The position numbers and the translations under genes are program-made. The notes under the pieces were generated by a model. The model was not told where the DNA came from, did not search any database, and saw only the letters and a program-made list of their open reading frames with translations. Positions 2,604 to 18,644 of a DNA stretch of 37,943 bases are shown here, in pieces. How positions within the stretch are numbered: the stretch's first letter is position 1; the number at the start of each line of letters is the position of its first letter. The DNA is taken from IMG/VR virus record IMGVR_UViG_3300019776_000558, positions 1 to 37,943 of that record, one strand, 5' to 3'. Origin of the DNA: a virus.

Positions 2604-2722
2604 AGACTTTCATCCAACCTGCAACTGCTGCTACTGAGGCAGTCACAACATCAGCTACACATCCAAGCAGGCTCTTCAAAAAAATGCTCTTCTTCTTTGC
2701 AAAGGTGGCCGATGCAGTCTGA
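2600..2722 (+). CDS. Possible 40-aa leader ORF ahead of the toxin
   Basis: A GTG at 2600 overlaps the preceding stop (GTGA) and opens a 40-codon frame ending with TGA at 2720-2722, ten bases inside the toxin gene that starts at 2712. The product has a Thr/Ala-rich first half, a basic RLFKK stretch and a hydrophobic end (MLFFFAKVADAV). Its stop-start arrangement would couple translation of the toxin to upstream genes. It is supported only by the overlap pattern and could be untranslated leader. Confidence 0.35.
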   Translation: MKTFIQPATAATEAVTTSATHPSRLFKKMLFFFAKVADAV

Positions 2723-3137
2723 AGAGAGTATAGTTTTAGCTAAACTTGCTAAAGAAAAACGCTTCGAGTCTGTGCGCTCAGGAACTGTCCATCAGATCTG
2801 GGCATGCGCAGATAGGCGAGGGAAGATACAACTCAAAGAATTTATCAAATGCCTATCTAGTGACAATATCGCCAAGTCTTTTCGACTATTTGATATGATC
2901 TGTGATAATGGGCTCCCAAAGTCCGACGAGAAATTCAAAATACTTGATGCGCCAGTTTTCGAATTAAAGCTATGGGGAATCAGATACATCGGTTTCCCAT
3001 TCGGAAGAAACCTCGTACTCACAAATGGACTTGAAAAAAAAACAAGCAAATCAAGCAAAGCAATACAATCAGAAGTAGCCTCAGCGCATAGCATCAGAGA
3101 AGAACTATTAACGTTCACAAAAAAGGCGAAAAAATGA
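2712..3137 (+). CDS. HigB-like (Gp49/RelE superfamily) toxin
   Basis: This 141-aa protein matches the Gp49-like branch of the RelE/HigB fold, toxins that cleave mRNA on the ribosome. The diagnostic part is VFELKLWGIR at residues 82-91 followed by LVLTNGLEKKT at 101-111, the equivalent of the L-W-E-L-R ... G-F-x-K-K-T signature. Arg91 and Lys109/110 are candidate active-site basic residues. The ATG at 2712 is preferred over an upstream TTG because it has an AGG-type ribosome site six bases away. The stop overlaps the antitoxin start (ATGA). Base composition is visibly A/T-richer than the flanking phage genes, suggesting recent acquisition. Confidence 0.8.
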   Translation: MQSEESIVLAKLAKEKRFESVRSGTVHQIWACADRRGKIQLKEFIKCLSSDNIAKSFRLFDMICDNGLPKSDEKFKILDAPVFELKLWGIRYIGFPFGRNLVLTNGLEKKTSKSSKAIQSEVASAHSIREELLTFTKKAKK

Positions 3138-3589
3138 CCAGCAAAAGCACTCTGCACGACGACAGCTTCGCTGCTCTTTTTGATAAAGCAAGAGATAATT
3201 TCGAATATCACATGGAGGGTTATCGCTACGATATTTCGGAGCAGATTTTCCAAGCATTCGAAAAATCTGGAATCACCCGCGCAGACTTTGCAAAAAAAAT
3301 GAATGTTAGCAAGGGGCGAATCTCTCAAATACTCGGCGGAACTAGCAACTACACTCTTGAAAGTCTTATTAGGATTTCGGAAATCCTTGATTACGATCTG
3401 AAGCTCTTCATCCGGCCTAGCAAGAGAGAGCAGTGCACTGGCTTCACTGACACACTTGAATATTCCATGGGCAATGAAACCCGAAGGAATAGCGCCATTG
3501 AAATACCGCAGCAGTCGACCGCAAAGACAGAGTCTTCCTACCTATACTTTGTGATGGATATCAAAAATGCTTTCTCCCCTGCAACTTAA
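3134..3589 (+). CDS. HigA-like XRE antitoxin with chaperone-addiction-like tail
   Basis: This 151-aa protein has a helix-turn-helix of the XRE/HigA type at about residues 46-93 (ITRADFAKKMNVSKGRISQI, then a YTLESLIRISEIL segment), the part expected to bind the operator and form the HigBA complex. Unusually it continues for about 55 residues after the HTH (96-151), with a final aromatic stretch SYLYFVMDI. In characterised TAC systems such a C-terminal extension (ChAD) is bound by the SecB-like chaperone and makes the antitoxin depend on it. The gene overlaps the toxin by four bases and the chaperone by 23 bases. Confidence 0.8.
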   Translation: MTSKSTLHDDSFAALFDKARDNFEYHMEGYRYDISEQIFQAFEKSGITRADFAKKMNVSKGRISQILGGTSNYTLESLIRISEILDYDLKLFIRPSKREQCTGFTDTLEYSMGNETRRNSAIEIPQQSTAKTESSYLYFVMDIKNAFSPAT

Positions 3590-4052
3590 ACACCACGCAA
3601 TTCAAAGCGTTTCCATCGAAGAAAACGAAAAGTGTGACGATCAATTCGGCAAGTTATGGATTCCAGAAGAACCCAACGTCAATGTTGGCATAGCATTCCA
3701 AGCCAACGACCCATACACATCCAGAATCATACTAACAATCAACGGCATATACGAGGAGGATTTCGCATGGAAATTCTCCATAAAACTAACTGGCTATTTT
3801 GAATTTACAGATAAAACAACCGATACAATTAAAGCGCAAAAGTTAAGTGCCGTAAATGGCTCAACAATGCTATACGGCATTGCTCGCGACATCCTCTACG
3901 GATTAACTACAAGAGGACAAAAGCCAACCATCAATCTACCTTCAATGAATTTCATGGAGGTAGCCGATCGCATTAACGAGGCGAATACCAAAAAGATTGA
4001 GCCTAAGCAAAAAGCAAAGAGCACACTTAGAACTCGCAAGAAGCCGGAATAA
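3567..4052 (+). CDS. SecB-like chaperone of a TAC module
   Basis: This 161-aa protein resembles SecB and the SecB-like chaperones of toxin-antitoxin-chaperone operons. The N-terminus (SPLQLKHHAIQSVSIEEN) fits the first SecB strand. The best evidence is residues 101-129, MLYGIARDIL, then LTTRG, then INLPSMNF, equivalent to the SecB signature L-x-P-x-A-R-E ... L-P-P-x-N-F. The tail is lysine-rich. The ATG at 3567 overlaps the antitoxin by 23 bases. By analogy with Mycobacterium Rv1957 it should protect the antitoxin from degradation. It is the last gene of the rightward arm and is followed by a strong terminator. Confidence 0.75.
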   Translation: MLSPLQLKHHAIQSVSIEENEKCDDQFGKLWIPEEPNVNVGIAFQANDPYTSRIILTINGIYEEDFAWKFSIKLTGYFEFTDKTTDTIKAQKLSAVNGSTMLYGIARDILYGLTTRGQKPTINLPSMNFMEVADRINEANTKKIEPKQKAKSTLRTRKKPE

Positions 4053-6731: not shown

Positions 6732-9149
6732 TCATGATCCCTCGAACCAATTGGTACCATCCGACCAGTAGGTCTTTGTCCCGGTCACCGTCTGGCCAGC
6801 AACCCCTCCACCGCCGTTCTTTGGATAAAGAGTCCCTGACTGCACAAGCACTGTCGTCGGGGTGTTGGGGTTGTTCCCGATGTTCCCGACGAATACGACG
6901 AACCCTCCAATCGCCACAGTCGGGAGCTTGACGTAGGTAGCCACTCCGGCTTGGCCTTGGATGATGTTGATCCCATAGATGGCGACTGGCGCGGCACCTG
7001 ATGTCGACGACGCAGAGAGAGTCGTCTTCTGAAAGGTTGCTCCCGAATTTCCGATGGCCAGCTTGTCGACAGTCAAGGAGTATCCGGATGGAATGCTCGC
7101 ATTGTTGTTGATCGTGAGAGGGACGTTGATCTGTGCAGACAAGCCACCAAAAAACGCGATGTCCGTCCAGGTGTTGATGCCGGCATTGTTGTTCCGAATA
7201 TGGACGCCCTTGCTCGTGGCCGCATTGAGATAGAGCTCGCCGTCGGCGCTGTGGAGCATCCCATAGGTGGTGCCCCCGTACATCGCCGAGTTGGACAGTT
7301 CTGCGAGCATTGTACCGAGTGCCCATTGTCCGAGCTTCCAATTTCCGAACACTCCCAGATTTACGCCCACGACCGTACCTGTCGCGGTAACGCTGGCCGC
7401 AGTCACTCCTCCGGAGAACGCCGCACTGGTTCCGTTGAACGGCACGTATGCAGTAATCGAGTCATCCTGAATGATCATCCGGTTCTGACGAACATTGCTG
7501 GCGTCAGTCGTCTGAAAGTTCAGCTGGTTGGCGGCACTGAGGTACGTCTCTACGTTGTCCTTCGCCCACAGAATCGCAAAGTTCTGCCCGGTAGGAGTAA
7601 CCCCGGAGGGCCAGAAGCCTTCGTACGCCGAGTTGGTGGGATAGTCCTGGAACTTGAAAGGGACGCTGGTGATCGTGCTCCACGCCTGTGTGTGGGACTC
7701 CGGCGTGAACGTACCGGGTACCCCTGTCAGGTTTCCCCAGGGGACCGTACCCGTGACCAAGGCACCTGCGGCGGTCCACTTCAGCCGCCAGCCTCCATTG
7801 TCGTAGAAACCGAAGTCTGAGGAGGCCCCTCCTGAAATCAACAACCGGCGTCGGTCTGGATCAGACCATTCAATACCGTGCCAGCTACCTACGATTGTGG
7901 CACCCAACTTAATGTTGCCGTGCGCTTGAGGCTGAGTGACCTCCGCGAGACCAGTAGGCACCCCGGTCAGTCCGGATATCCAGGCGTGCGTGTGTGCGGT
8001 TGGCGTGCGGGCATCAGATAGCCTTGAGTCGTTGCCTTGGCAGACAGTCCCCGCAGTGGTGCCGTAGCTGATGACTCCGGAAATGTCGGCCCAGGCCATC
8101 GCGCTCGCGGTCCAGGTGTCCGCAGCGGTGCGCCGGACGAATCCGGTGGTGGCCAGATTGGAAATCGCCGTGAGGTCCGCATCGAGCGGCTGGTACACCC
8201 CGGCGTGGTTGTGCTCATTCCGGGTGCCAGTCAGATTCCCCGTGTGCCAGATCGTCTTCCACGGGTACCACGTCCCGTTGTCTCCCTTCCGCCGCCACCA
8301 CAGGCTGTTCGAATCCGAGCCGTAGGAGTCGGACGCGATCTGCATGGAACCGCCATTGTACCGCCCCAGCGTCTGCACGAAGGCGTAGTCGCCCGGACGG
8401 TTCGCTGCCGTGTTCTGGGTGTACCCGCTCTGGAGGTTCGTGAGCGTGTTCGGATCAACCGTCCCAGCCATATTTGCGATCGTGCTCTCGAGAGCGTAGT
8501 AGCTCGGAAGCTGGCCGCCAAGTTTCGCGGAATCGGCGGAGGATCCGGAGATCGCGATCGGCCAGGTGGAACCGAAGTCTGTCGAGTCAACCTGCAAGCG
8601 CAGCGCAGCACCGGCTGACCATCCGATATAAAGCTTGTTCGTGGTCTGGGAAGTACCACCTCCCTGCTGCACCGGCGTGAAGCCGAGACTCGCCTGCTTC
8701 CCGGCCAAGGCATCAGTGATCCACCCGCTTGCCGAGTCCACCACGCTCTGCGGATGCGTGGCTGGGTGAGTGTAGGGGGCGACCCAGGAACGCGCACCTG
8801 CGCTGGTGCTGGAGAGGAGGTAGCCGCTGGATCCGGGATTGCCCAGGGCAGCTTCCTTCCCTGCCAGCGCCGTCGTCAGCCCAGAGACATCCGCCTGCGG
8901 GATGGCCGAGACCACCGACCACGCCCCCGCCCCGGTGCGCTTGGCATAACCCGTGGACGACAAGCCGTCCAGGGCGGAGAGCTCGGCCGAGATGGGCTGG
9001 TAGGTGCTCGGGAGCGCGGCTTCCAGGGCAAGCACCTCAGCCGTCACCGCGGCCACTCCCGTGTCGATGTACTGGACATTCGCTGCGGAGAGGTCCGGGG
9101 AATCGGCGTAGTCGGTCCAGGTCTTGGCGATGTAGGCGGCTAGGCTCAT
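6732..9149 (-). CDS. Tail fibre with pyocin-knob-like domain, 805 aa
   Basis: The ATG at 9149 overlaps the tip-protein stop (ATGA). The N-terminus (SLAAYIAKTWTDYADSP) probably attaches to the tail tip. Two fibre-type repeats of the form S/T-T-G-(Y/F)-x-x-R-T-x-x-x-x-W occur. A pyocin-knob-like segment follows around residues 265-330 (ANRPGDYAF, then WWRRKGDNGTWYPWKTIWHTGNL). The C-terminal half is Gly/Thr-rich beta structure ending in TYWSDGTNWFEGS. It is the likely receptor-binding fibre, made trimeric in the virion. Confidence 0.85.
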   Translation of the reverse strand: MSLAAYIAKTWTDYADSPDLSAANVQYIDTGVAAVTAEVLALEAALPSTYQPISAELSALDGLSSTGYAKRTGAGAWSVVSAIPQADVSGLTTALAGKEAALGNPGSSGYLLSSTSAGARSWVAPYTHPATHPQSVVDSASGWITDALAGKQASLGFTPVQQGGGTSQTTNKLYIGWSAGAALRLQVDSTDFGSTWPIAISGSSADSAKLGGQLPSYYALESTIANMAGTVDPNTLTNLQSGYTQNTAANRPGDYAFVQTLGRYNGGSMQIASDSYGSDSNSLWWRRKGDNGTWYPWKTIWHTGNLTGTRNEHNHAGVYQPLDADLTAISNLATTGFVRRTAADTWTASAMAWADISGVISYGTTAGTVCQGNDSRLSDARTPTAHTHAWISGLTGVPTGLAEVTQPQAHGNIKLGATIVGSWHGIEWSDPDRRRLLISGGASSDFGFYDNGGWRLKWTAAGALVTGTVPWGNLTGVPGTFTPESHTQAWSTITSVPFKFQDYPTNSAYEGFWPSGVTPTGQNFAILWAKDNVETYLSAANQLNFQTTDASNVRQNRMIIQDDSITAYVPFNGTSAAFSGGVTAASVTATGTVVGVNLGVFGNWKLGQWALGTMLAELSNSAMYGGTTYGMLHSADGELYLNAATSKGVHIRNNNAGINTWTDIAFFGGLSAQINVPLTINNNASIPSGYSLTVDKLAIGNSGATFQKTTLSASSTSGAAPVAIYGINIIQGQAGVATYVKLPTVAIGGFVVFVGNIGNNPNTPTTVLVQSGTLYPKNGGGGVAGQTVTGTKTYWSDGTNWFEGS

Positions 9150-12100
9150 GCGGGGATCTCCACGGAATAGACGGTCACGGCGGCCGGGTCCTCGGTGGGG
9201 CACGGGAAACGCCAGTAGCAGGTGCGGCCCTCACTGCCCGGAGGCAGGGGCCACTGGAAAGCGTCATTGGTCACGGCGCCCACCCGGGACAAGATCGGGT
9301 GCGGGCCGCAGGTGGTGCCATAGAGGCCACGCCGTAGGACGGAGCACTGGGCCACCTGCCCGTCGTCGCTCTCGGTCGCGTAGGCCATCAGCTCGCCATC
9401 CACCCACAGCAGGGCGCCGGGGTTGCCTGCCAGGTAGTCGTTCCACATCGGCCAGGGCGGCACGATGCTCTCGCCAAAGTCGGCCAAGCCGTAGTCTGCC
9501 ACGCCCACGCGCAGGCCAGGATGCACCCTCTGCCCAGGGCGCACGCGCAGCCGGTCCATCGCCTGGATCAAGTGCCCCGTGGGAGACTGCTTGGCGCACG
9601 TCCCGACCGACTCCCAGGTGATGCCGTCCCAGCTCTGCTGCACGGAGCACCCACGCCATCCGACACCGCCCGAGAGCAGGATCCACACCTGGAGCAGGCC
9701 GCCGATCAGGGCCACGAAGATGATCGGCAGGTTCACGGGGCTGGCAACGGTGATGCCCCCGGAGGTTCCCGCGCCCGAGGCTCCCGGAGGTGCGATGGCG
9801 GAGGAGGACACCACCACGTCCTCGGCTTCCATCTCGATCCAGTCGGCAGGGGCTTCGCTCTTGCGCAGGATCCGCACCGGCCGGGAGGGGATCAGCCCAT
9901 CCCCGATGGTCACGATGTCCCCCGGCTCCAGGAGCATGTACCGCTGGCTCACAGCAAAGGAGTACGTGCGCCCGGTTCGCTGGTGGTGTCGCAGGCGCAG
10001 CCAGGCGCAGGTCATGGCCACCTGGGCGTTGGTGATCCAGTTCCAGTCGCAGGGGGATGCCTCGATCACGCCCATGCGCGAGGCCGCTCCCTCGTCCTGG
10101 ATCGTGGTCGGCTCGTCGGAGTAGTTGCGGGCCCGGTTCTTCCACGTGACGGTGAGGCGGTTCCAGCGTTCATCGGCGCCGATCACCTCCACGGAGATGC
10201 CGTCCCGCAGGTGCCCGGCCGGGATGACCATGCAGGGCGCCGCGTGCTCGGGCTTGGGCGTGTAGGTCACCCCGTTTGCCGTGATGGTGGCCGTCTCCCG
10301 CACCAAGACCTTGATGAGGCCTTCGGAGCGATAGGGCACGGAGTTGGCACTCTCCAGGATGTCGCAGACCAGTGGCCACGCCGCCTGCTGGCTGGTCAAG
10401 AGCAGGGAGAAGCGAATCCCCATGGCGGTGCAGTAGTTGTCGAAGATGGCCCAGGTCACCGGGTCGAAGGTGAGATCGCGGAGGTTGAGGCCGCGCACCG
10501 GGTCGCCAGTGAGGAGACGCTTGCAGATCACCGAGGGGAGGAGGTCGCCGCTTCCGTTGGTCGTCACGATCTCCCGGATGCCGCACTCCGGGGTGCTGTT
10601 CGGGAGGCTCGCGTCGTTCTCCTCGTTCTCGCGCCAGATCCCCAGGGCCATGCCATTGAGGGCTTGGAACTGGTAGCCCACCGAGTTGTTGCCGCCCGAG
10701 CTGGGAGCGTAGGTCAGCCACGGCGTCACGGCCTTGGTGGACGTGCTCACGGCGCGCACCTCGAGCGAGGGGCTGGACCAGCATTCCCAGAAGGTGCCCT
10801 TCACCACCGAGGCCGGCTTCCCGTAGGCGACGAAGATCTGGCCGTTCCCGTTGTGGAAGGCGTTGGCAAGAAGCCCCGGTGCGGTAGTCGTGGTCAGCTC
10901 GGTGCGGGCGGCGTCCCAGGTGATCGAGCTTGCGCCAATGGTCCCCCAGGCGATGCGCCAGGCGCCCCACGGGAGGCGGTCGGGATAGGTCAGCGGCGTG
11001 CACTTGGCATCGTTGGCTCCCTCGTTCCCGGGAGCGTAGGCAAGGCCGCCATATCCCCAGTATGCGGTATTGGGGTACCACAGCGGGGCGTGGTTGTAGA
11101 GGACCGCGAAGGTGGTGGCCGTGAGGCCCATGATCTGGGTGCTGCCCTCGTTGCGGTAGTCGTACCCGTCGTTCGGCACCCACCCGAGGGAGACGCCGGC
11201 ATACCCGTTGAGGTTGAGCCACGGCAGGGAGACGACGTTGGAGTGCGGCTCGGTGTCGCCGGAGACCAGGTTGAAGGCGGCCGCGGGGAGATCCCACCGC
11301 ACCAGGGTGTCGGCCTTGATGGGGACGGCGAAGAGCTGGCATTGGGCCGTGCCGACTGGGACGTAGACGCAGGAGAGGATTGCCTTCCCGGAACCGAGAG
11401 GGAAGATGGAGGGGGCGCGAACGAGATTACTTTCCATCGCCCCGGTAAGCAGTGCATTTGAATCCGCAATGCACAATTCGCCTTTTCTGCCCGGCCCAGG
11501 GAAAAGCGTTCTATCCGTCAGATCAGGAATCACCCACACTGTTGTCGAGATTGCAGTGGACGGTAAATATCCAACAACCACGCCAACTGTCTGATTCAGG
11601 TGCGGTCGAGGATTCGCAATCTGATTCCGCTTCTGGCAGGAGACCCAAACCTCCCCGCTGGAATGCAGGGCGATTTGCAATCGCTGGACTCCGGCTGCAT
11701 TCGCCTTCGTCTGAGGTACCAGGCTTTGCCCGAAGGTCCATGTCGTGCCGCTGTCCGTGCTCCAGGCGTGAACGATCTGCACCGGCTCCGAGGCCTGATC
11801 CAGGCGGGACCAGACCACATGCACCAGATTGCCCACCGCCGCGATGCGAGGCTGAGGGACAGCACCGGAGGCCGGTAGGTAGGAAGCATTCACCGAGGCG
11901 CTGCACACGGTCACAGGAGCCGACCACGCCCCCGTCCCGGTGCGAGACATCAGGACTATCGTGCTGGTCTGTGCACTCCACGCCAGCAGGTAAGTCTTGG
12001 CCGTGGCCCCGCTCCCGGTGACGCATGCCGCCATGTCGGTGGCGATCTTCGGTTGCCCCGCCACCGTCTCCCCGGTGTCGTTGTTCTGGGTGAAGGGGAC

Positions 12101-12535
12101 GGGGAAGATGTAGTTGCCATCCGCGCCCGAGAGCGTGAGGTCCGAGGAACCCTCGAAGGAAAGGCTTCCGGGCGAAGAGGTCGTATCGTTCGGAGCCGTC
12201 ACGCCCACCCACGGGAAAGGGTCGGTCGCGTGCGCCTTGGCGGAGTCCGTGGCGCCCATGTCGACCGTCTGGCCCTTGTCGGCAAACTGCTTGCCGATGG
12301 ACTTGAGCGGCCCCTCGCACATGCCGTACCGGATCGCCTTCGGGGAGCTCACACTCAACCCTGCCTTGGAGGCTGTCCGCTCGTCCCAGATGACGGTGGT
12401 CGGGACTCTGTGCTGCCCGATCAGGAGCGGGACCGGCGTCCCATAGGCGGCGGTCGTGACCGGGCGGTAGAAGTCGCTGGCCCGGCGGGATTCTGGGATG
12501 GCGGTCGGGCGCTGGGCACGGCGTGAAAGGTCCAT
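9146..12535 (-). CDS. Tail tip/host-specificity protein with inserted sialidase-like beta-propeller, 1129 aa
   Basis: The N-terminus (YGTPVPLLIGQHRVPTTVIW, about residues 31-50) and the region from about 655 onward match the tip/central-fibre proteins found after DUF2163 hubs (GTA gp15/gpJ-like). Between about 135 and 655 lies a long insertion of beta-strand-rich sequence containing a canonical Asp-box (S-T-D-S-G-T-T-W, residues 259-266) after an HVVWSRLD strand. That is the signature of sialidase/BNR-type propellers. The insertion probably displays a glycan-binding or glycan-cleaving domain at the tail tip. The gene begins 6 bases after one of the late elements. Confidence 0.8.
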   Translation of the reverse strand: MDLSRRAQRPTAIPESRRASDFYRPVTTAAYGTPVPLLIGQHRVPTTVIWDERTASKAGLSVSSPKAIRYGMCEGPLKSIGKQFADKGQTVDMGATDSAKAHATDPFPWVGVTAPNDTTSSPGSLSFEGSSDLTLSGADGNYIFPVPFTQNNDTGETVAGQPKIATDMAACVTGSGATAKTYLLAWSAQTSTIVLMSRTGTGAWSAPVTVCSASVNASYLPASGAVPQPRIAAVGNLVHVVWSRLDQASEPVQIVHAWSTDSGTTWTFGQSLVPQTKANAAGVQRLQIALHSSGEVWVSCQKRNQIANPRPHLNQTVGVVVGYLPSTAISTTVWVIPDLTDRTLFPGPGRKGELCIADSNALLTGAMESNLVRAPSIFPLGSGKAILSCVYVPVGTAQCQLFAVPIKADTLVRWDLPAAAFNLVSGDTEPHSNVVSLPWLNLNGYAGVSLGWVPNDGYDYRNEGSTQIMGLTATTFAVLYNHAPLWYPNTAYWGYGGLAYAPGNEGANDAKCTPLTYPDRLPWGAWRIAWGTIGASSITWDAARTELTTTTAPGLLANAFHNGNGQIFVAYGKPASVVKGTFWECWSSPSLEVRAVSTSTKAVTPWLTYAPSSGGNNSVGYQFQALNGMALGIWRENEENDASLPNSTPECGIREIVTTNGSGDLLPSVICKRLLTGDPVRGLNLRDLTFDPVTWAIFDNYCTAMGIRFSLLLTSQQAAWPLVCDILESANSVPYRSEGLIKVLVRETATITANGVTYTPKPEHAAPCMVIPAGHLRDGISVEVIGADERWNRLTVTWKNRARNYSDEPTTIQDEGAASRMGVIEASPCDWNWITNAQVAMTCAWLRLRHHQRTGRTYSFAVSQRYMLLEPGDIVTIGDGLIPSRPVRILRKSEAPADWIEMEAEDVVVSSSAIAPPGASGAGTSGGITVASPVNLPIIFVALIGGLLQVWILLSGGVGWRGCSVQQSWDGITWESVGTCAKQSPTGHLIQAMDRLRVRPGQRVHPGLRVGVADYGLADFGESIVPPWPMWNDYLAGNPGALLWVDGELMAYATESDDGQVAQCSVLRRGLYGTTCGPHPILSRVGAVTNDAFQWPLPPGSEGRTCYWRFPCPTEDPAAVTVYSVEIPA

Positions 12536-12541
12536 GCCCCG

Positions 12542-12580
12542 AAGATGATCCCCCTACGCGCGCGCGGGGAGTCCTGAATT
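12542..12580 (-). promoter_or_regulatory. Two-block late element, copy 2 (AATTCAGGAC-N23-CATCTT)
   Basis: On the minus strand AATTCAGGAC (12580-12571), 23 bases, then CATCTT (12547-12542), 6 bases before the tip-protein ATG. The 23-base spacer contains CCCC-GCGCGCGCGTA-GGGG, a possible hairpin. The TAA stop of the upstream lipoprotein gene overlaps the first bases of the element. Confidence 0.75.
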
Positions 12581-12980
12581 AGGGAGCTTTGCAGTAGACT
12601 TGGATGGTATCGACGGAATATTTCCCCGATCCCTGGGCGGCGATCATGTATTTAATGTTGTTTTTCCCTGCACATCCGACTTTGACAGTCGAATCTCCTG
12701 ACGCATTGTGCTGGAAAATAATCGTAGTCGAACCGTCAACTATGGAATACAAAGAATCTCCGATTCCTGATCCAGCGATATTCACACTTTCCTTATACCA
12801 CCACTGTACCTTCACGGTGGGTGAATCCACCGGAGCGGCCTTGGTCCCGGTGAGCACGGTCACGGAAAGGCGGGGCGCATCCGGAGGGCCGGGAATGGTA
12901 TCCGTGGGCGCGGTCGTGGCGGTGTCGTCGCAGGCGACCAGGGCAAAGGCGAGGGCGAAGAGGGCGAGTAGGTGGCGCAT
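12579..12980 (-). CDS. Putative lipoprotein, 133 aa, moron-like
   Basis: The N-terminus MRHLLALFALAFALVAC is a bacterial lipoprotein signal with a lipobox LVAC at residues 14-17. An acidic/Thr/Pro linker follows, then a beta-rich domain of about 100 residues with two Cys (VGCAGKN and QVYCKAP) that may form a disulphide. It is probably exported and anchored in the outer membrane. Such lipoproteins in tail regions of temperate phages often block superinfection or receptors, but that role is inferred. The middle of the gene is A/T-richer than its neighbours. Confidence 0.7.
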   Translation of the reverse strand: MRHLLALFALAFALVACDDTATTAPTDTIPGPPDAPRLSVTVLTGTKAAPVDSPTVKVQWWYKESVNIAGSGIGDSLYSIVDGSTTIIFQHNASGDSTVKVGCAGKNNIKYMIAAQGSGKYSVDTIQVYCKAP

Positions 12981-12989
12981 GGGGTTCCT

Positions 12990-13367
12990 TTACTTCGCAG
13001 TGACGATTGTTACGACGATCCCAGCCAATACCAATGCGGTCTGCAACCACAATGCCGTGGCGATATTGTTCTGAGCACGAGCGGCTGATTCCTGCGCCTT
13101 CACAGAACGCTCTTCCAGCGATTCATTCTGCACTTCCGAAGATCCGGAACTGCGCGGGATATTCGGGTATCTCGCTGGCACCTTTTCAACGGCAGGTGAT
13201 TTCACATCCTTGGAATCCATCTGGTAGATTCTTCCGGCACGAATCTCATTCAGGCATTCGCTCTGGGCAGGCTCGACAAGGTTGTAGCACTCCTGGCGAT
13301 TCCTGATTTCGACAGGTTCGGCAGAGGCAAGTCCGGCGGCAAGGGCAAGGAACATGGACAGGCGCAT
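12990..13367 (-). CDS. Exported protein with signal peptide and C-terminal TM, 125 aa
   Basis: The ATG at 13367 gives a signal peptide (MRLSMFLALAAGLASA). A periplasmic region follows with two Cys close together (RQECYNLVEPAQSECLNEI), then a polar/coiled middle, and a hydrophobic segment at about residues 103-123. I do not recognise a family. Together with the adjacent lipoprotein it looks like a lysogenic-conversion or exclusion pair inserted between the hub and tip genes. Confidence 0.6.
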   Translation of the reverse strand: MRLSMFLALAAGLASAEPVEIRNRQECYNLVEPAQSECLNEIRAGRIYQMDSKDVKSPAVEKVPARYPNIPRSSGSSEVQNESLEERSVKAQESAARAQNNIATALWLQTALVLAGIVVTIVTAK

Positions 13368-13424
13368 GGTGGGCTCCGGTGGGTGGTCCCCCAAGTCTAC
13401 ATCCTGGGGGTGCGTGGTGCAAAC

Positions 13425-14243
13425 TCAGACCCGCCTTTGCCAGACGCCCGGATCGGTCCCCCGCTCCCATCCCAATTGACGGAGGGCGCGAGCCGCCTCA
13501 GCCTGGTCGAAGCCGGTCACGCCCTTCGGATCACGCCGCATGGCCCCGATGCAGACCTCCCGCGTCGTGGTCTGCCACCACAGGCCGTCTTCCGACTTCC
13601 GCAGGTTCGAGGCCGTGAGCCAAGGGAGGATCTGCTCCAGGCGCGTGTGCCCCCGGCTGGAGATCACCGGAGCCTCGGAGGACGCGAACGGATTGAACTC
13701 CTCTCCGGTCCTCGCCTTCTCGAATCGGGACTCAGCATCCCGAAGCCGAACCATCACCCCGGCCAGCTCCCGAAGCGCGTCTGCCTTGTCGTCCAGGGCT
13801 GAGGCCATGCCCGCCAACTGCCCCGGCTCCAGGCTGAGGTAGTCGATCTCCTTCGGCTTGCTCCCCAGCTCAGCTTCGCGGGTGCGCACGGCGAAGTAGT
13901 GCTGCGCGGCGGCGATCTCGGTCTTGTTGGGGTCTCCGTTCATGGCCACGAGGTAAGCTGCGTACCGGGAGAGGTGTACATCGGCGTGGATCTGCTTCGC
14001 TCCATCGCCATGCACAACCTCCTTGCCAGCATTGGCAAAGAGGTCATCCAGCCCGGAAACACCAGAATTTCGCGCAGAAGCCTTGGCGCGGAGGATGACG
14101 TCGTGGAAGCGCCTCCACTGGACGTATCCAAGAGCGGCTTGAAGGTCTCGGGCGCTCCAGTACTCGGAGCCGTCCTCCCTGGTCAGGCGCAGGGCATCAA
14201 AAGGGCTCTCTTGGGTGGCGGTCTGCTCGATCAAGTCATTCAT
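13425..14243 (-). CDS. DinD/BRO-N-like protein, possible antirepressor, 272 aa
   Basis: The N-terminal half closely follows the DinD pattern: EYWSARDLQAALGYVQWRRF (about residues 27-46), DVILRAKASARNSG, then KQIHADVHLSRYAAYLVAMN and GDPNKTEIAAAQHYFAVRTR. DinD proteins are SOS-induced and inhibit RecA-driven strand exchange in E. coli. Related BRO-N proteins serve as phage antirepressors. The C-terminal 130 residues are a different, helical domain with an IGAMRRDPKGVTGFD segment. The gene sits alone between a dyad-containing gap (14244-14423) and two exported proteins, so it may be independently regulated. Confidence 0.75.
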   Translation of the reverse strand: MNDLIEQTATQESPFDALRLTREDGSEYWSARDLQAALGYVQWRRFHDVILRAKASARNSGVSGLDDLFANAGKEVVHGDGAKQIHADVHLSRYAAYLVAMNGDPNKTEIAAAQHYFAVRTREAELGSKPKEIDYLSLEPGQLAGMASALDDKADALRELAGVMVRLRDAESRFEKARTGEEFNPFASSEAPVISSRGHTRLEQILPWLTASNLRKSEDGLWWQTTTREVCIGAMRRDPKGVTGFDQAEAARALRQLGWERGTDPGVWQRRV

Positions 14244-14332
14244 GCTCTACCTCAACGAAAAAGCTCTGCACGAGGTACCGGGTAGAAGTCACCAACCTTG
14301 CGGCGGTGGACCGGATTCGTACAGAGCTGGTG

Positions 14333-14350
14333 GTCCCTGCAAGCAGGGAC
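14333..14350. promoter_or_regulatory. Perfect dyad GTCCCTGC-AA-GCAGGGAC upstream of the DinD-like gene
   Basis: An 8-bp perfect inverted repeat with a 2-base centre lies in the 180-bp gap 14244-14423, ahead of the DinD-like gene. No U-tract follows on either strand, so it looks like an operator rather than a terminator. Its right arm and flank, AGGGACAGCC, match the repeats at 29051-29351. I see nothing else clear in the gap. Confidence 0.5.
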
Positions 14351-14423
14351 AGCCTCATTTCGTTGCACCCGGACTTCTACCTCCAAGCGCGTTCCCTGAA
14401 GGTACCTCCCGGCGCGGGGGAAG

Positions 14424-14621
14424 TCAAGCCTCCGCCATGCACCGTTCCCGGCTCAGCTCCCCCGCCCCGTGGACACTCTCCTCCGTCCCGCACAGGAGGC
14501 AGTACAGCACGGCGCCGGAGAGGCGGAACTCCACCCCTCCCACGATGCGCCGCTTCTGCTCCACGTCCGTGGTCAGGTAGACGATCTCCCCCAGCTCGAA
14601 GTCGGACATGAAGACGCTCAT
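14424..14621 (-). CDS. Small conserved-looking phage protein, 65 aa
   Basis: The ATG at 14621 overlaps the hub stop (ATGA). The protein is a small beta-rich domain (FELGEIVYLTTDVEQKRRIV, then VLYCLLCGTEESVHGAGELS) with a Cys-x2-Cys pair. Its shape recalls small SH3-like phage proteins. It occupies the position where related phages often carry an NlpC/P60 tail peptidase, but it is far too short for that. No function is assigned. Confidence 0.6.
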   Translation of the reverse strand: MSVFMSDFELGEIVYLTTDVEQKRRIVGGVEFRLSGAVLYCLLCGTEESVHGAGELSRERCMAEA

Positions 14622-15703
14622 GCGCTCTCCGGCTCCGGCATGTCGGGGAAGCCGCCGAAGCCTGACTTGATGTCGCCTGGTGCGCCTCCCCACGTATCAT
14701 TCCTGACATCCCAGGTCGCGCAGGCCATCGCACTTGTCTCCAAGTCCCCCTGCGTCAGGGTTTTGCTGCACGCCAGTTCTATGTGGGCTGTGGTGCAGCT
14801 CCATGACCAAGGAAGCGTGTCTGCGAGCTCGCAGGTGTAGCCATCGATCCGGTTGCCCAGCTGGAAGCGCATCCCCATCATAGGCCCATCCTGTGGGACG
14901 ATGAAGGTCCATGGAAACGCATCTGCCGACTGGAACTGGATCCAGCCGGGATACGGAAAGCTCACCGCACTGCCCTGGATCTTCTTGTGCGTATTCGCCT
15001 TCCCTGAGACGATCCCATCTCCCCACAGCGTCTTCACCATGGGGCACCCCACGCCCTGGCTTGCCCCACTCGCGAACTCCCAACGACAGAGCGGGGAGAA
15101 CAGGTTGCGGGGCACGCTCCCGCCACCCTGGATCAGGACATCGCACGCATCGAACTCCACCGACTGGCTGCTTGGCTTGGCCCCACGGATCACCCCATCG
15201 AAGACCCGCACCGGGTCGGGAGTCAGCACGCCGTAGCCCGCGCCGGCCGCCACAGGGGTGGCAGGAAGCTCCTGCACCACCGCCTGATCGATGGCCAGCC
15301 GGGAGCCGTCCAGCATGCCCAGGAGAGCCAGCTCCATCAGAGATGTGGCAAAGCTCCCGCTCCCGTCCTGCGCCGTTGCGAGGTAGATGGGGAGTGTACC
15401 CGCCACGCTCATGGAGATCTGGAGCACCTCAGCACCGAGGGAGCCTTGCAGGCTGCCCCGCTGGTAGGCGACTCCCTGAAGCGGCTGGTACACCTGACCG
15501 CCGTCCTTGGCCGTGGCACTGGTGCGCAGGGCGCGCGGCGCACTGGTCCACCGCACCGAGTCCTCGATCTCCTTGACCCCGATGAAGACGCCGTTCCCGT
15601 CGAACTGGTGACACCGCCCGCGTCGAATGGTGAGGGTCACTAGGTCCACGACCATGGCGCGTCCGGTCCCCAGCACGGCCTCCACGCCCGCCGCCGCGAT
15701 CAT
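14618..15703 (-). CDS. Tail hub protein (DUF2163 / phage BR0599 family), 361 aa
   Basis: Between the distal tail protein and the tip gene, this protein fits the DUF2163/BR0599 hub family of GTA-like tails. The N-terminal half has the expected beta pattern. The C-terminal half has LFSPLCRWEF and QGVGCPMVK (Cys206 and Cys220), followed by Cys303 and Cys312. The four Cys are the likely ligands of the Fe-S cluster seen in lambda gpL and the GTA hub. The start at 15703 overlaps the previous stop (ATGA). Confidence 0.8.
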   Translation of the reverse strand: MIAAAGVEAVLGTGRAMVVDLVTLTIRRGRCHQFDGNGVFIGVKEIEDSVRWTSAPRALRTSATAKDGGQVYQPLQGVAYQRGSLQGSLGAEVLQISMSVAGTLPIYLATAQDGSGSFATSLMELALLGMLDGSRLAIDQAVVQELPATPVAAGAGYGVLTPDPVRVFDGVIRGAKPSSQSVEFDACDVLIQGGGSVPRNLFSPLCRWEFASGASQGVGCPMVKTLWGDGIVSGKANTHKKIQGSAVSFPYPGWIQFQSADAFPWTFIVPQDGPMMGMRFQLGNRIDGYTCELADTLPWSWSCTTAHIELACSKTLTQGDLETSAMACATWDVRNDTWGGAPGDIKSGFGGFPDMPEPESA

Positions 15704-16386
15704 TCGAACACCTGCTCAAGCTCGATGCCGTCACCCTCGAGCATCGCCCAGGCCAACCACTTGACCGAGAAAGAATCGGTGGCCAGCCGCACCCGGTAGG
15801 CGAACTCGAAGTCGGCCGTCACAGGAAGGCCTGACCCGGGCGCCGTGGCGAAGGTGGCGAGCGCCCCACCAGTGATGCCATCGAAGGCCGTGAAGTTGCA
15901 GGACTGTGCGCCTCCGGAGACCTTCCCGACCGGCGCGAAGTTGCGGGTATCAACCCACTGCACAGGCTCGGCCGCGCGGCCATATGGGAAGGTCTGCGTA
16001 CCGAAGGGGCGCACCAGGGGGAAGACCTTCTGCACGCCGTCCCCGATGCCGATTTGCACCCCCGTGAGGCGGCAGAAAGCGCCCTTGCCGGCCTTGCTGA
16101 TCTGGTAGGCATCCTCGGTGGGGCAGAACAGGAACGAGTCCTGCATGCCGCCCCTGGACATGAAGAACCCGGCCAGCGTCTTGAAGGCGGCAAGCTGGGC
16201 ATCGTCGCGCAGCATCGGCAACTTGATCGACCACTTCCACCGCGGGGCCGCCCATAGGGAGACCCGGAACTCCGAACCACCCTGGCCCCGCTGAACCTGC
16301 GTCGACCACTGGGCCTCCCGGCTCTCGATCACCCAGGGAATCTCCCGGGACAGCCCGTCCAGGACTGGGAAGAATACGTTGCTCAT
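15700..16386 (-). CDS. Distal tail protein (DUF2460, GTA gp12-like), 228 aa
   Basis: The protein has the DUF2460 shape: an N-terminal FFPVLDGLSREI..VIESREAQ segment, WKWSIKLPML, then LAGFFMSRGGMQDSFLFCPTEDA, the last being the conserved loop that describes the data-rich strand of the family. Length and order (tape measure, DUF2460, DUF2163) match GTA-like siphophage tails. It forms the ring at the end of the tail tube. ATGA overlaps occur on both sides. Confidence 0.85.
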   Translation of the reverse strand: MSNVFFPVLDGLSREIPWVIESREAQWSTQVQRGQGGSEFRVSLWAAPRWKWSIKLPMLRDDAQLAAFKTLAGFFMSRGGMQDSFLFCPTEDAYQISKAGKGAFCRLTGVQIGIGDGVQKVFPLVRPFGTQTFPYGRAAEPVQWVDTRNFAPVGKVSGGAQSCNFTAFDGITGGALATFATAPGSGLPVTADFEFAYRVRLATDSFSVKWLAWAMLEGDGIELEQVFE

Positions 16387-18644
16387 GCGAAGGATACCCT
16401 CCCTTGGTTGTTGATGATCTTGACCAGAGCAGAGCCCTTCGACGCGATGGCGGCCAGGATGTCCTCAGGCAGCACCAGGGACGCGCTGTGATTCCCTCCC
16501 TTGCCGGCACCAGGCCCGCCCAGGGTCATCTCACCCTTCCGGATCCCCTCGGCAAAGGTGGCCGGCACGATGGTCTCGCCCTTGTGGATCTGGGCCACCA
16601 TGTCCCGCGGGACGCTTGGGGTGCCCACGGCGAAGGAGGCCTGGATCGACTGCACGTCCGCGATGACGGTTGCGCCCTGCGCCGCCGCGCCGGCCATCAG
16701 GACCATGTTCTGAGGCCAACCCGCCTTCATGCCCTCGGCAATGCTCTGTTGCATGGCCAGCATGCTCTGGGCGATGGTGAAGGCCTTGGAGAGAGCGAAC
16801 ATGGCCTTGTAGGATGCGGACTGCTTTCCAAGCGACTGGTCCATGACGCTGGCCAGCGTGCCGAACGCCTGGGACATGGACTGGGTCATGGAGTGGTAAG
16901 CCTGCCGGGTGGACTCGGCAAGCTTCTTGTCGGCTTCCATCTTGTCGTGGAGGCGCTTTTTCTGCTCTGCCGCTTCCTTCTTGTCAGCTTCCTCCATCTC
17001 TTGCTTGATCTTAAGCTCACCTTTAGCCCAGACGGAGCGCTTCTCCTTCTCCTCCGCCTCCTTGATCCTCGCCATCTTGTCGGCATGGCCCTTGGCCTTC
17101 TCCCGCAGTTCTCGGTACTTCTCCTCGACCTGCGCCAACTCCTTGTCGCGGGCCACCATGGCGTTCGCGATACCTTGGGCGATCCCTTCCTTCTCCAGCT
17201 TGTCGAGTGCTGCGTTGGCTTGCTCCTGGGCGCGTGTCTCGGCATCCATCTTGTCCAGCGTGGCATCAATGGCCGCGCCTTCCTTGGCAGCCTTCTCCGC
17301 TGCCTTCTTCTCCTTGTCGCTCGGGCCTCCGCCGGTCTTCCCCTTCCCCTTCTTCTTGCCCGGGACATCGATCTCCTCTGGGTCTTCATAGACCGAAGCC
17401 ATCTGCTTGCCGACTTCGACAAGCTCCGTGCGCGCCGTGTCAGCAACCTCGCCCATGGCCCCGCTCACACCTTGGGTCCACTCCTTTGCAGAGGACAACC
17501 CAGCGGCAAGGTTCTTCGTCCAGGAGTCCGGTAGGATGCTCCCGAACAGACCGTTGACCTTCTCGGCAAACCCGATGATCAGGGTCAGCGAGTCAACCAG
17601 TACCCGGCCAACCTCCGCCACCACCATGGGGAGCACCTGCTGGCCAAAGGCCTTGAACACGAGGAAGGCTTCACGGAAGATCTTCACCGTGGAGCTCACG
17701 ACCCAGCCCAAGACCTGAGCCGCCGGCTTCATGTCGTTGAAGAACCCGGTCAGATCCTTGGTCGCGCCGGAGGCAGAGGGTAGGATCTGGTCCCCGAACT
17801 CCCGGAGCACGCCGCCCAGGCTGTCCTGCATGGTGGAGGCCAGACCCTCGAAGGTCTTGGACTGGGCGTCCATCATTCCGCTGTACTGCTCGAAGGACTT
17901 CTTGGCCACGTCCCACACCTCGGGCCCCTTCTTGCCTTCCTTCTGCAGCTTCTCGATCTCGGCACGGGTCTCACCCGACATGGCGCCCAGCTCCTGCAAG
18001 CGCGCCATGGCCTCTCCCACAGGACGGCCAGAATCCAGGCCATCGTAGAGGCGACCGAACCAAGTGGCCAACTCATCGAACGGTTGGCCGGTAGCCGCGG
18101 CCGTATCGCCCACCATCCGCAGGCCGTCACCCGTGGAGAGCGCCCCCTTGGTCAGGGTCTCCAGAACCTTCGAGGCCTTGGCCACCTCGGGAAGCTCGAA
18201 GGGCGTGGTGTCCGCGAACTTCACCAGCTCCTGCATGCGCTCCTTGGCCGCCCCGGTGGATCCCAGCAACACACCAAACTGCACCTGGAGCTTCTGCATT
18301 TCCGCAGAGGGACCCAGTGCCACCTTGATGGCCTGGCCAGCCAGCTCGACCGACTGCTTGATTCCGGAGATGGCAAGGCCCACCGTGCCGAAGCCAGCCA
18401 TCATCCCGGATGCCGCCGGCTTGGACTGGCCCCCGATCTTGCCCACCGCCTCGGCCGTCTCCCCGGACGCGCGGGCGATCTCGCGCAGGGCAAGCGTCGA
18501 CTGCATGAACCCCTGCTGGAGTTGCGCATTCGTCCGCTGGGCCTCCTGCACCAGGCGCTGGAGCGCGGCCTCCGACTGGCTCACACCGGAGTTCATCCCC
18601 GAGGCGTCGGCCGAGATCTTGACTCCCACGTTCATGTCGCTCAC
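16383..18644 (-). CDS. Tape measure protein, 753 aa
   Basis: The longest gene after the tail chaperones. The N-terminal 300 residues carry the tape-measure domain (for example FGVLLGSTGAAKERMQELV and FADTTPFELPEVAKASKVLE). Hydrophobic segments lie near 320-375. A charged coiled coil spans about 430-580. The end has the usual VAQIHKGETIVPATFAEGI motif. It fixes tail length; at the usual 1.5 angstrom per residue a tail of roughly 110 nm is expected. The start is a GTG overlapping the preceding stop (GTGA); an internal ATG three codons downstream is an alternative. Confidence 0.9.
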   Translation of the reverse strand: MSDMNVGVKISADASGMNSGVSQSEAALQRLVQEAQRTNAQLQQGFMQSTLALREIARASGETAEAVGKIGGQSKPAASGMMAGFGTVGLAISGIKQSVELAGQAIKVALGPSAEMQKLQVQFGVLLGSTGAAKERMQELVKFADTTPFELPEVAKASKVLETLTKGALSTGDGLRMVGDTAAATGQPFDELATWFGRLYDGLDSGRPVGEAMARLQELGAMSGETRAEIEKLQKEGKKGPEVWDVAKKSFEQYSGMMDAQSKTFEGLASTMQDSLGGVLREFGDQILPSASGATKDLTGFFNDMKPAAQVLGWVVSSTVKIFREAFLVFKAFGQQVLPMVVAEVGRVLVDSLTLIIGFAEKVNGLFGSILPDSWTKNLAAGLSSAKEWTQGVSGAMGEVADTARTELVEVGKQMASVYEDPEEIDVPGKKKGKGKTGGGPSDKEKKAAEKAAKEGAAIDATLDKMDAETRAQEQANAALDKLEKEGIAQGIANAMVARDKELAQVEEKYRELREKAKGHADKMARIKEAEEKEKRSVWAKGELKIKQEMEEADKKEAAEQKKRLHDKMEADKKLAESTRQAYHSMTQSMSQAFGTLASVMDQSLGKQSASYKAMFALSKAFTIAQSMLAMQQSIAEGMKAGWPQNMVLMAGAAAQGATVIADVQSIQASFAVGTPSVPRDMVAQIHKGETIVPATFAEGIRKGEMTLGGPGAGKGGNHSASLVLPEDILAAIASKGSALVKIINNQGRVSFA

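Follow-up and report, generated by a model that had tools for sequence, protein, structure and literature searches.

A putative BNR/Asp-box propeller in the peripheral-domain slot of a gpJ/megatron-type phage tail tip protein

The tail tip proteins of gene transfer agents (GTAs) and of related phages, termed megatrons, carry a peripheral domain. In the RcGTA megatron (Rcc01698) this domain comprises residues 230-744 and was proposed to bind sugar (PMC7296036). According to a recent preprint (PMC13420450), the tailspike TspA is contacted by a loop of this domain, whose function in GTAs was described there as unknown. The megatron peripheral domain of roseophage R4C comprises residues 212-903 with an inserted carbohydrate-binding module, and sugar binding was proposed here as well (PMC10276861). 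We refer to the position between the N-terminal and central hub domains, which these peripheral domains occupy, as the slot.

Propellers are found in phage adhesins. The endosialidases endoNF and phi92 are separate trimeric tailspikes with characterised catalysis and not hub insertions; they represent phage adhesins with a sialidase-type propeller, as is proposed for the domain described below, and endosialidase tailspikes were among the structural matches to it. The receptor-binding protein of Staphylococcus aureus phage phi11 reportedly contains a beta-propeller within the host-recognition device (PMC4901313). Unlike the present case, it is a protein of its own, from a siphophage of Gram-positive bacteria, and no hub insertion.

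The window, i.e., the whole stretch of DNA analyzed here, is a 37,943-base IMG/VR virus record with a 99-base direct terminal repeat, and therefore probably a complete, circularly assembled genome. The tail module is encoded on the minus strand in the order tape measure, DUF2460, probable second hub, Bro-N, two small genes and tip (Table 1). The tip gene is thus located downstream of the tape measure and DUF2460 genes, as expected for a gpJ/megatron-type hub. In a five-sequence test the probable second hub protein was weakly similar to DUF2163 proteins of relatives (E ~5e-4). Annotated relatives have an NlpC/P60 peptidase gene upstream of the tip gene; none was recognised at this place in the window (12579-14618). 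The "side fibre" encoded at 6732-9203 gave no Pfam family and weak tail-related PHROG matches, so that a tip domain additional to a side fibre, as read previously, is supported on the fibre side by these matches and by gene position.

Two further gene arrangements were observed. The Bro-N (antirepressor-like) gene (13425-14243, minus strand) lies inside the tail module, a short way upstream of the tip gene. A Bro-N relative with 39% identity was found on the same side of the tip gene in L338, one of the two insert-bearing relatives described below, i.e., this odd position is conserved. Three overlapping genes on the plus strand (2697-4052) gave matches to a Gp49/HigB-like toxin, an HTH_3 antitoxin and a SecB-like chaperone (E 1e-3, 3e-8, and 1.2e-5, respectively, the first and third being just below the Pfam cut-off). 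This stretch is low in GC (0.42 vs. 0.63), and its layout is that of a phage-borne toxin-antitoxin-chaperone module.

Table 1. Features of the tail tip protein and of its tail module (positions in the window; residues of the tip protein).
Feature	Positions	Strand	Residues	Basis
Tape measure gene	16383-18644	-		tail module
DUF2460 distal tail protein gene	15700..16386	-		PF09343, E 5e-29
Probable second hub (DUF2163-type) protein gene	14618..15703	-		weak DUF2163 similarity and gene order
Tail tip (hub) protein gene	9146..12535	-	1129 aa	ORF call, lambda gpJ/GTA megatron type
N-terminal adhesin-like hub domain	12200..12460	-	~26-112	family profile, megatron match, L338/L371 identity
Inserted domain (entry linker ~38 residues)	10550..12199	-	~113-662	empty slot of relatives; L338/L371
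First two beta-meander blades (predicted)	11702..12007	-	177-278	AlphaFold2, pLDDT ~64-80
Degenerate Asp-box-like SRTGTGAW	11924..11947	-	197-204	sequence; R198 and W204 invariant in three tips
Pfam BNR_2-like stretch	11627..11956	-	194-303	E 5e-6
Perfect Asp-box STDSGTTW	11738..11761	-	259-266	motif
Central and C-terminal hub domains	9149..10549	-	663-1129	profile, model, L338/L371 identity
Phage-tail_3 (PF13550)	9863..10396	-	714-891	Pfam

The Phage-tail_3 domain was found in the tip protein with an E-value of 1.5e-11 (44.9 bits, cut-off 23), and several tail PHROGs matched the protein, including phrog_1101 (E 7e-22). Residues 641-1125 scored 505 bits against a profile of C-terminal cores. 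Since the window itself was one of the ten sequences in this profile, the independent measure is its identity of 24-32% to the nine relatives. In a full-length AlphaFold run the core (residues 663-1129) was modelled mostly at pLDDT 80-95, and structural comparison revealed resemblance to the hub of JBD30, phage Chi, lambda gpJ, the R4C megatron and T5 pb3. At the N-terminus a family profile matched residues 26-90 (11.5 bits), and residues 59-141 of a GTA megatron aligned to residues 26-93 (E 7e-5). The GTA megatron equivalog NF048004 gave 20.8 bits for residues 26-93 only, compared to more than 800 bits required over the full length. The N-terminal match is weak when taken alone, and the assignment of this domain leans mainly on its position and on the relatives L338 and L371. 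By sequence and model the protein is a hub of the lambda gpJ/GTA-megatron type. This agrees with a previous sequence-only reading of the locus, which described an otherwise standard GTA/gpJ-like tip protein, and both the N-terminal and the C-terminal core matches bear this out. Judging from solved relatives, three copies of the protein would make up the hub at the tail tip.

We identified an insert of ~510-550 residues that separates the N-terminal domain from the central (Phage-tail_3) domain. An interruption of about 500 residues at 10580-12135 (residues 134-652) had been noted before and is confirmed here, with edges moved to residues ~113 and ~662 by alignment with L338 and L371. BLAST had pointed to an edge at residue 624, which was dropped after profile alignment and comparison with the same two proteins. 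The sequence SPGSLSFEGSS preceding the inserted domain is partly common to all three. The comparison with relatives lacking the insert, proposed earlier as a check, was carried out on ~170 first-round core relatives from viral and bacterial genomes. The N-terminal domain was found to abut the core in ~165 of these, placing the insert outside the conserved core; the first-round relatives had 142-307 residues before the core vs. 658 in the window. Four had ~60-113 extra residues at the junction between the N-domain and the core. Two loci that came from one source were omitted from one of the alignments.

Third-position GC was 0.45-0.82 at tip residues 161-400 (window 11336-12055), a stretch falling largely into the first half of the insert, vs. 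~0.9 in most other parts of the tip gene. In seven relatives (L059, L062, L112, L135, L162, L169, and L175) the N-terminal hub domain is enlarged internally by ~90-110 residues and thus represents a second insertion-prone site.

GTA megatrons were the exception among the relatives, with a TIM-barrel peripheral domain filling the slot. In the GTA megatron L184 the N-domain is as in the window to residue ~220, followed by GTA_TIM at 447-745 and Phage-tail_3 at 804-964. GTA_TIM (PF13547) did not match the window insert up to an E-value of 10, while the L184 control scored 518 bits. The RcGTA megatron resembles the window protein in that its slot, too, is filled by a domain of ~500 residues, flanked by the adhesin-like and central domains; the RcGTA tip protein is trimeric, as that of the window would be. 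It differs by the TIM barrel (GTA_TIM) found there, whereas the window insert looks like a BNR propeller. The R4C megatron is similar with respect to the slot but not to the fold, which comprises a mannanase-like domain and a CBM11-like module. The tips of the Acinetobacter phages MD-2021a, vB_AbaSI_5 and Effie (L007, L003, and L005) have the same core as the window, with identities of 28-29% (L007 and L003) and ~25% (L005), but an empty slot. Their carbohydrate-active protein, a BNR sialidase or an esterase (SASA or SGNH), is encoded by a separate gene of the same tail module, which is the same kind of tool delivered by another route. The tip encoded by the ORF starting at position 1 of L189 seemingly has a few hundred residues in the slot, with no recognised Pfam family.

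Our first scans favoured cores of the Acinetobacter type (pattern LEPMDI) and missed a clade carrying LLEPGDIV. Among the ~50 tip proteins obtained in a scan with the latter peptide there were two, L338 (1142 aa) and L371 (1126 aa), that had the same insert as the window (E 3e-19 and 4e-16, respectively). The corresponding rows are L338:6656-8188 (minus strand) and L371:2412-3947 (plus strand). As the clade was found by a single peptide pattern, further clades with filled slots may have escaped. Identities to the window were 36-38% for the N-domain (residues 1-149), 46-47% for the core, and 30-32% in one half and 20-24% in the other half of the insert. In a tree of 59 cores the window, L338 and L371 formed one clade with a support of 1.0. 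The insert thus belongs to a small lineage and is not a one-off, and our initial view that it was unique to the window was dropped. The simplest account is a single acquisition in the ancestor of the three. Close-peptide searches with the tip, core or insert gave no match in viral or genome contigs. By tblastn the insert matched no phage record up to an E-value of 10, and matches in ~650 genomes were at chance level. A profile of the three inserts matched nothing in 398 genomes and no PDB chain.

The insert had been read as a sialidase-like propeller with beta-strand repeats and a perfect Asp-box. The Asp-box was verified and is the only strict one in the whole tip protein. The corresponding sequence is STDAGGSW in L338 and a degenerate STNAGGSW in L371. 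Beyond this box and the degenerate one upstream of it, no Asp-box was recognised further on in the insert. The BNR_2 match had a score of 26.5 bits, which is below the curated cut-off of 31.4; L338 and L371 gave a weaker match or none. The match of the window vanished when the Asp-box was masked and also when everything but the intact Asp-box was shuffled (5 shuffles), hence the match depends on the box together with its surroundings and not on the Asp-box alone. Three phage BNR-type proteins were found to be related to the insert at the level of blades: L317 was detected by phmmer (E 8e-6), L318 aligned colinearly with about three blades (~190 residues, E 3e-7 in pairwise BLASTP), and L224, which itself is BNR_2-positive (E 2e-7), was weakly similar (phmmer ~0.1). 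The genes for L224 and L318 are located directly behind a tape-measure-like gene. The sole match in the plasmid collection was a multi-Asp-box BNR protein, with an E-value of 0.7 that is not significant by itself. Profile-profile comparison of the insert to phage sialidases (hhalign) was not significant. Comparison of the insert with itself revealed no sequence similarity between putative blades, and a generic blade profile gave no signal. Tryptophans W204, W266, W334, and W414 occupy comparable positions close to the ends of blades and do not vary among the window, L338 and L371.

The full-length AlphaFold run with core rows in the alignment gave no resolved fold for the insert. An AlphaFold2 prediction of residues 130-664 was made with an alignment that included fragments of BNR relatives. 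Four-stranded blades were modelled at residues ~177-278 with moderate confidence, followed by weaker strands to ~322. Beyond this point pLDDT was under 50 and no propeller was resolved; overall pLDDT of the insert was 39.7. The beta-strand repeats described earlier were thus recovered only in part, as modelled strands to ~322 and not as sequence similarity between blades. Foldseek matches to the insert model were mostly GH43, GH93, GH117, and sialidase propellers (best E 4e-3) and also included endosialidases and propeller lectins. With VIA-align the best match was the propeller lectin PLL2 (Z 9.1), and human Neu2 had a Z of 8.1. Given the weak model and an alignment leaning toward BNR proteins, this supports a propeller fold without proving it. 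The structure prediction that had been suggested as a check thus agrees with a propeller in its first blades and in most of its matches. By eye six or seven blades were counted, which is a guess since no repeat signal was found in the self-comparison.

Altogether, sequence and model make a BNR/Asp-box beta-propeller the most likely fold of the insert. The BNR relationship of its first half stands, as does the insertion, and the full propeller claimed before would be an extrapolation from these. We favour, with reasonable though not high confidence, that it serves as a peripheral receptor domain on a trimeric hub, binding and less likely cleaving a host glycan. The propeller would be situated between the N-terminal adhesin-like and central domains, and the hub would display three such propellers at its periphery. 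By analogy to RcGTA and R4C these copies may contact capsule or LPS and bind, or less likely cleave, this surface glycan before hub opening. Anchoring to the glycan would then be followed by opening of the hub and release of the tape measure protein and DNA.

A catalytically active propeller, similar to endosialidases or to another propeller glycoside hydrolase and cutting capsule or LPS at the tip, is unlikely, although it is the strongest of the alternatives. In sialidases the first blade has the order strand A with an arginine, strand B, strand C and Asp-box. The Asp-box blade of the window has a similar order, with QPRI (R230) in strand A and strand B ending in WSR (R244), followed by strand C and the Asp-box. 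The three tips do not differ at R198, R230, R244, and R413 or at several acidic residues, and these arginines may therefore form a cluster; the sialidase Arg triad, looked for in the insert, could not be placed. The enzymes among the structural matches and the sialidase or esterase genes adjoining the tip gene in the Acinetobacter relatives also agree with cleavage. However, no FRIP motif was found in the insert, which has QPKI and QPRI instead, and no enzyme family was above cut-off in a Pfam-type search. R373 (VRAPS) was considered as the FRIP arginine and rejected, being not conserved in L338 and L371. The Asp following WSR is Gly or Ala in L338/L371; the position of the acid/base Asp is thus not conserved, which makes a canonical exo-sialidase unlikely. 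The insert may have an endo-acting or other glycosidase activity. Pure lectins were also among the structural matches, and glycan binding would be the most economical role, with cleavage less likely.

It is somewhat less likely still that the domain does not bind the receptor but serves as a platform on which another adhesin docks. This is a live alternative since the equivalent domain of RcGTA touches the tailspike TspA by a loop (PMC13420450), and propellers often bind proteins. On the other hand nothing in the window identified a partner, and most relatives function without any domain in the slot. We give a similarly low probability to a beta-rich insert that is no propeller, e.g., a stack of beta-sandwich modules in which the Asp-box arose by chance: modelling covers the first blades only, internal repeats were not found, the Pfam score is sub-threshold, and Asp-boxes are known outside propellers (L338 and L371 carry one in the C-terminal hub domain), but the loss of the BNR_2 match in shuffled controls, several independent BNR relatives, the dominance of propellers among the structural matches and the invariant blade-end tryptophans speak against it.

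For a propeller serving as peripheral receptor domain, what is new here is a different fold in an already known cargo slot. A sialidase-like domain located where GTAs carry an unrelated barrel suggests that the slot takes interchangeable host-recognition parts. The chances are about even that the space separating N-terminal from central domains in hubs of the gpJ/megatron type is a general cargo bay, filled independently by different lineages with unrelated carbohydrate-active folds: a TIM barrel, a TIM barrel with a carbohydrate-binding module, small modules and, in the present clade, a propeller of the sialidase type. If so, host recognition would be swappable inside the tip hub, which opens to release DNA, instead of in a fibre. 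That the slot takes another glycan-type fold, unrelated to the TIM barrel, would be comparative evidence for a receptor-binding position, for which the window, L338 and L371 represent a testable lineage, and tip proteins, besides fibres, may be a place to seek host-range determinants.
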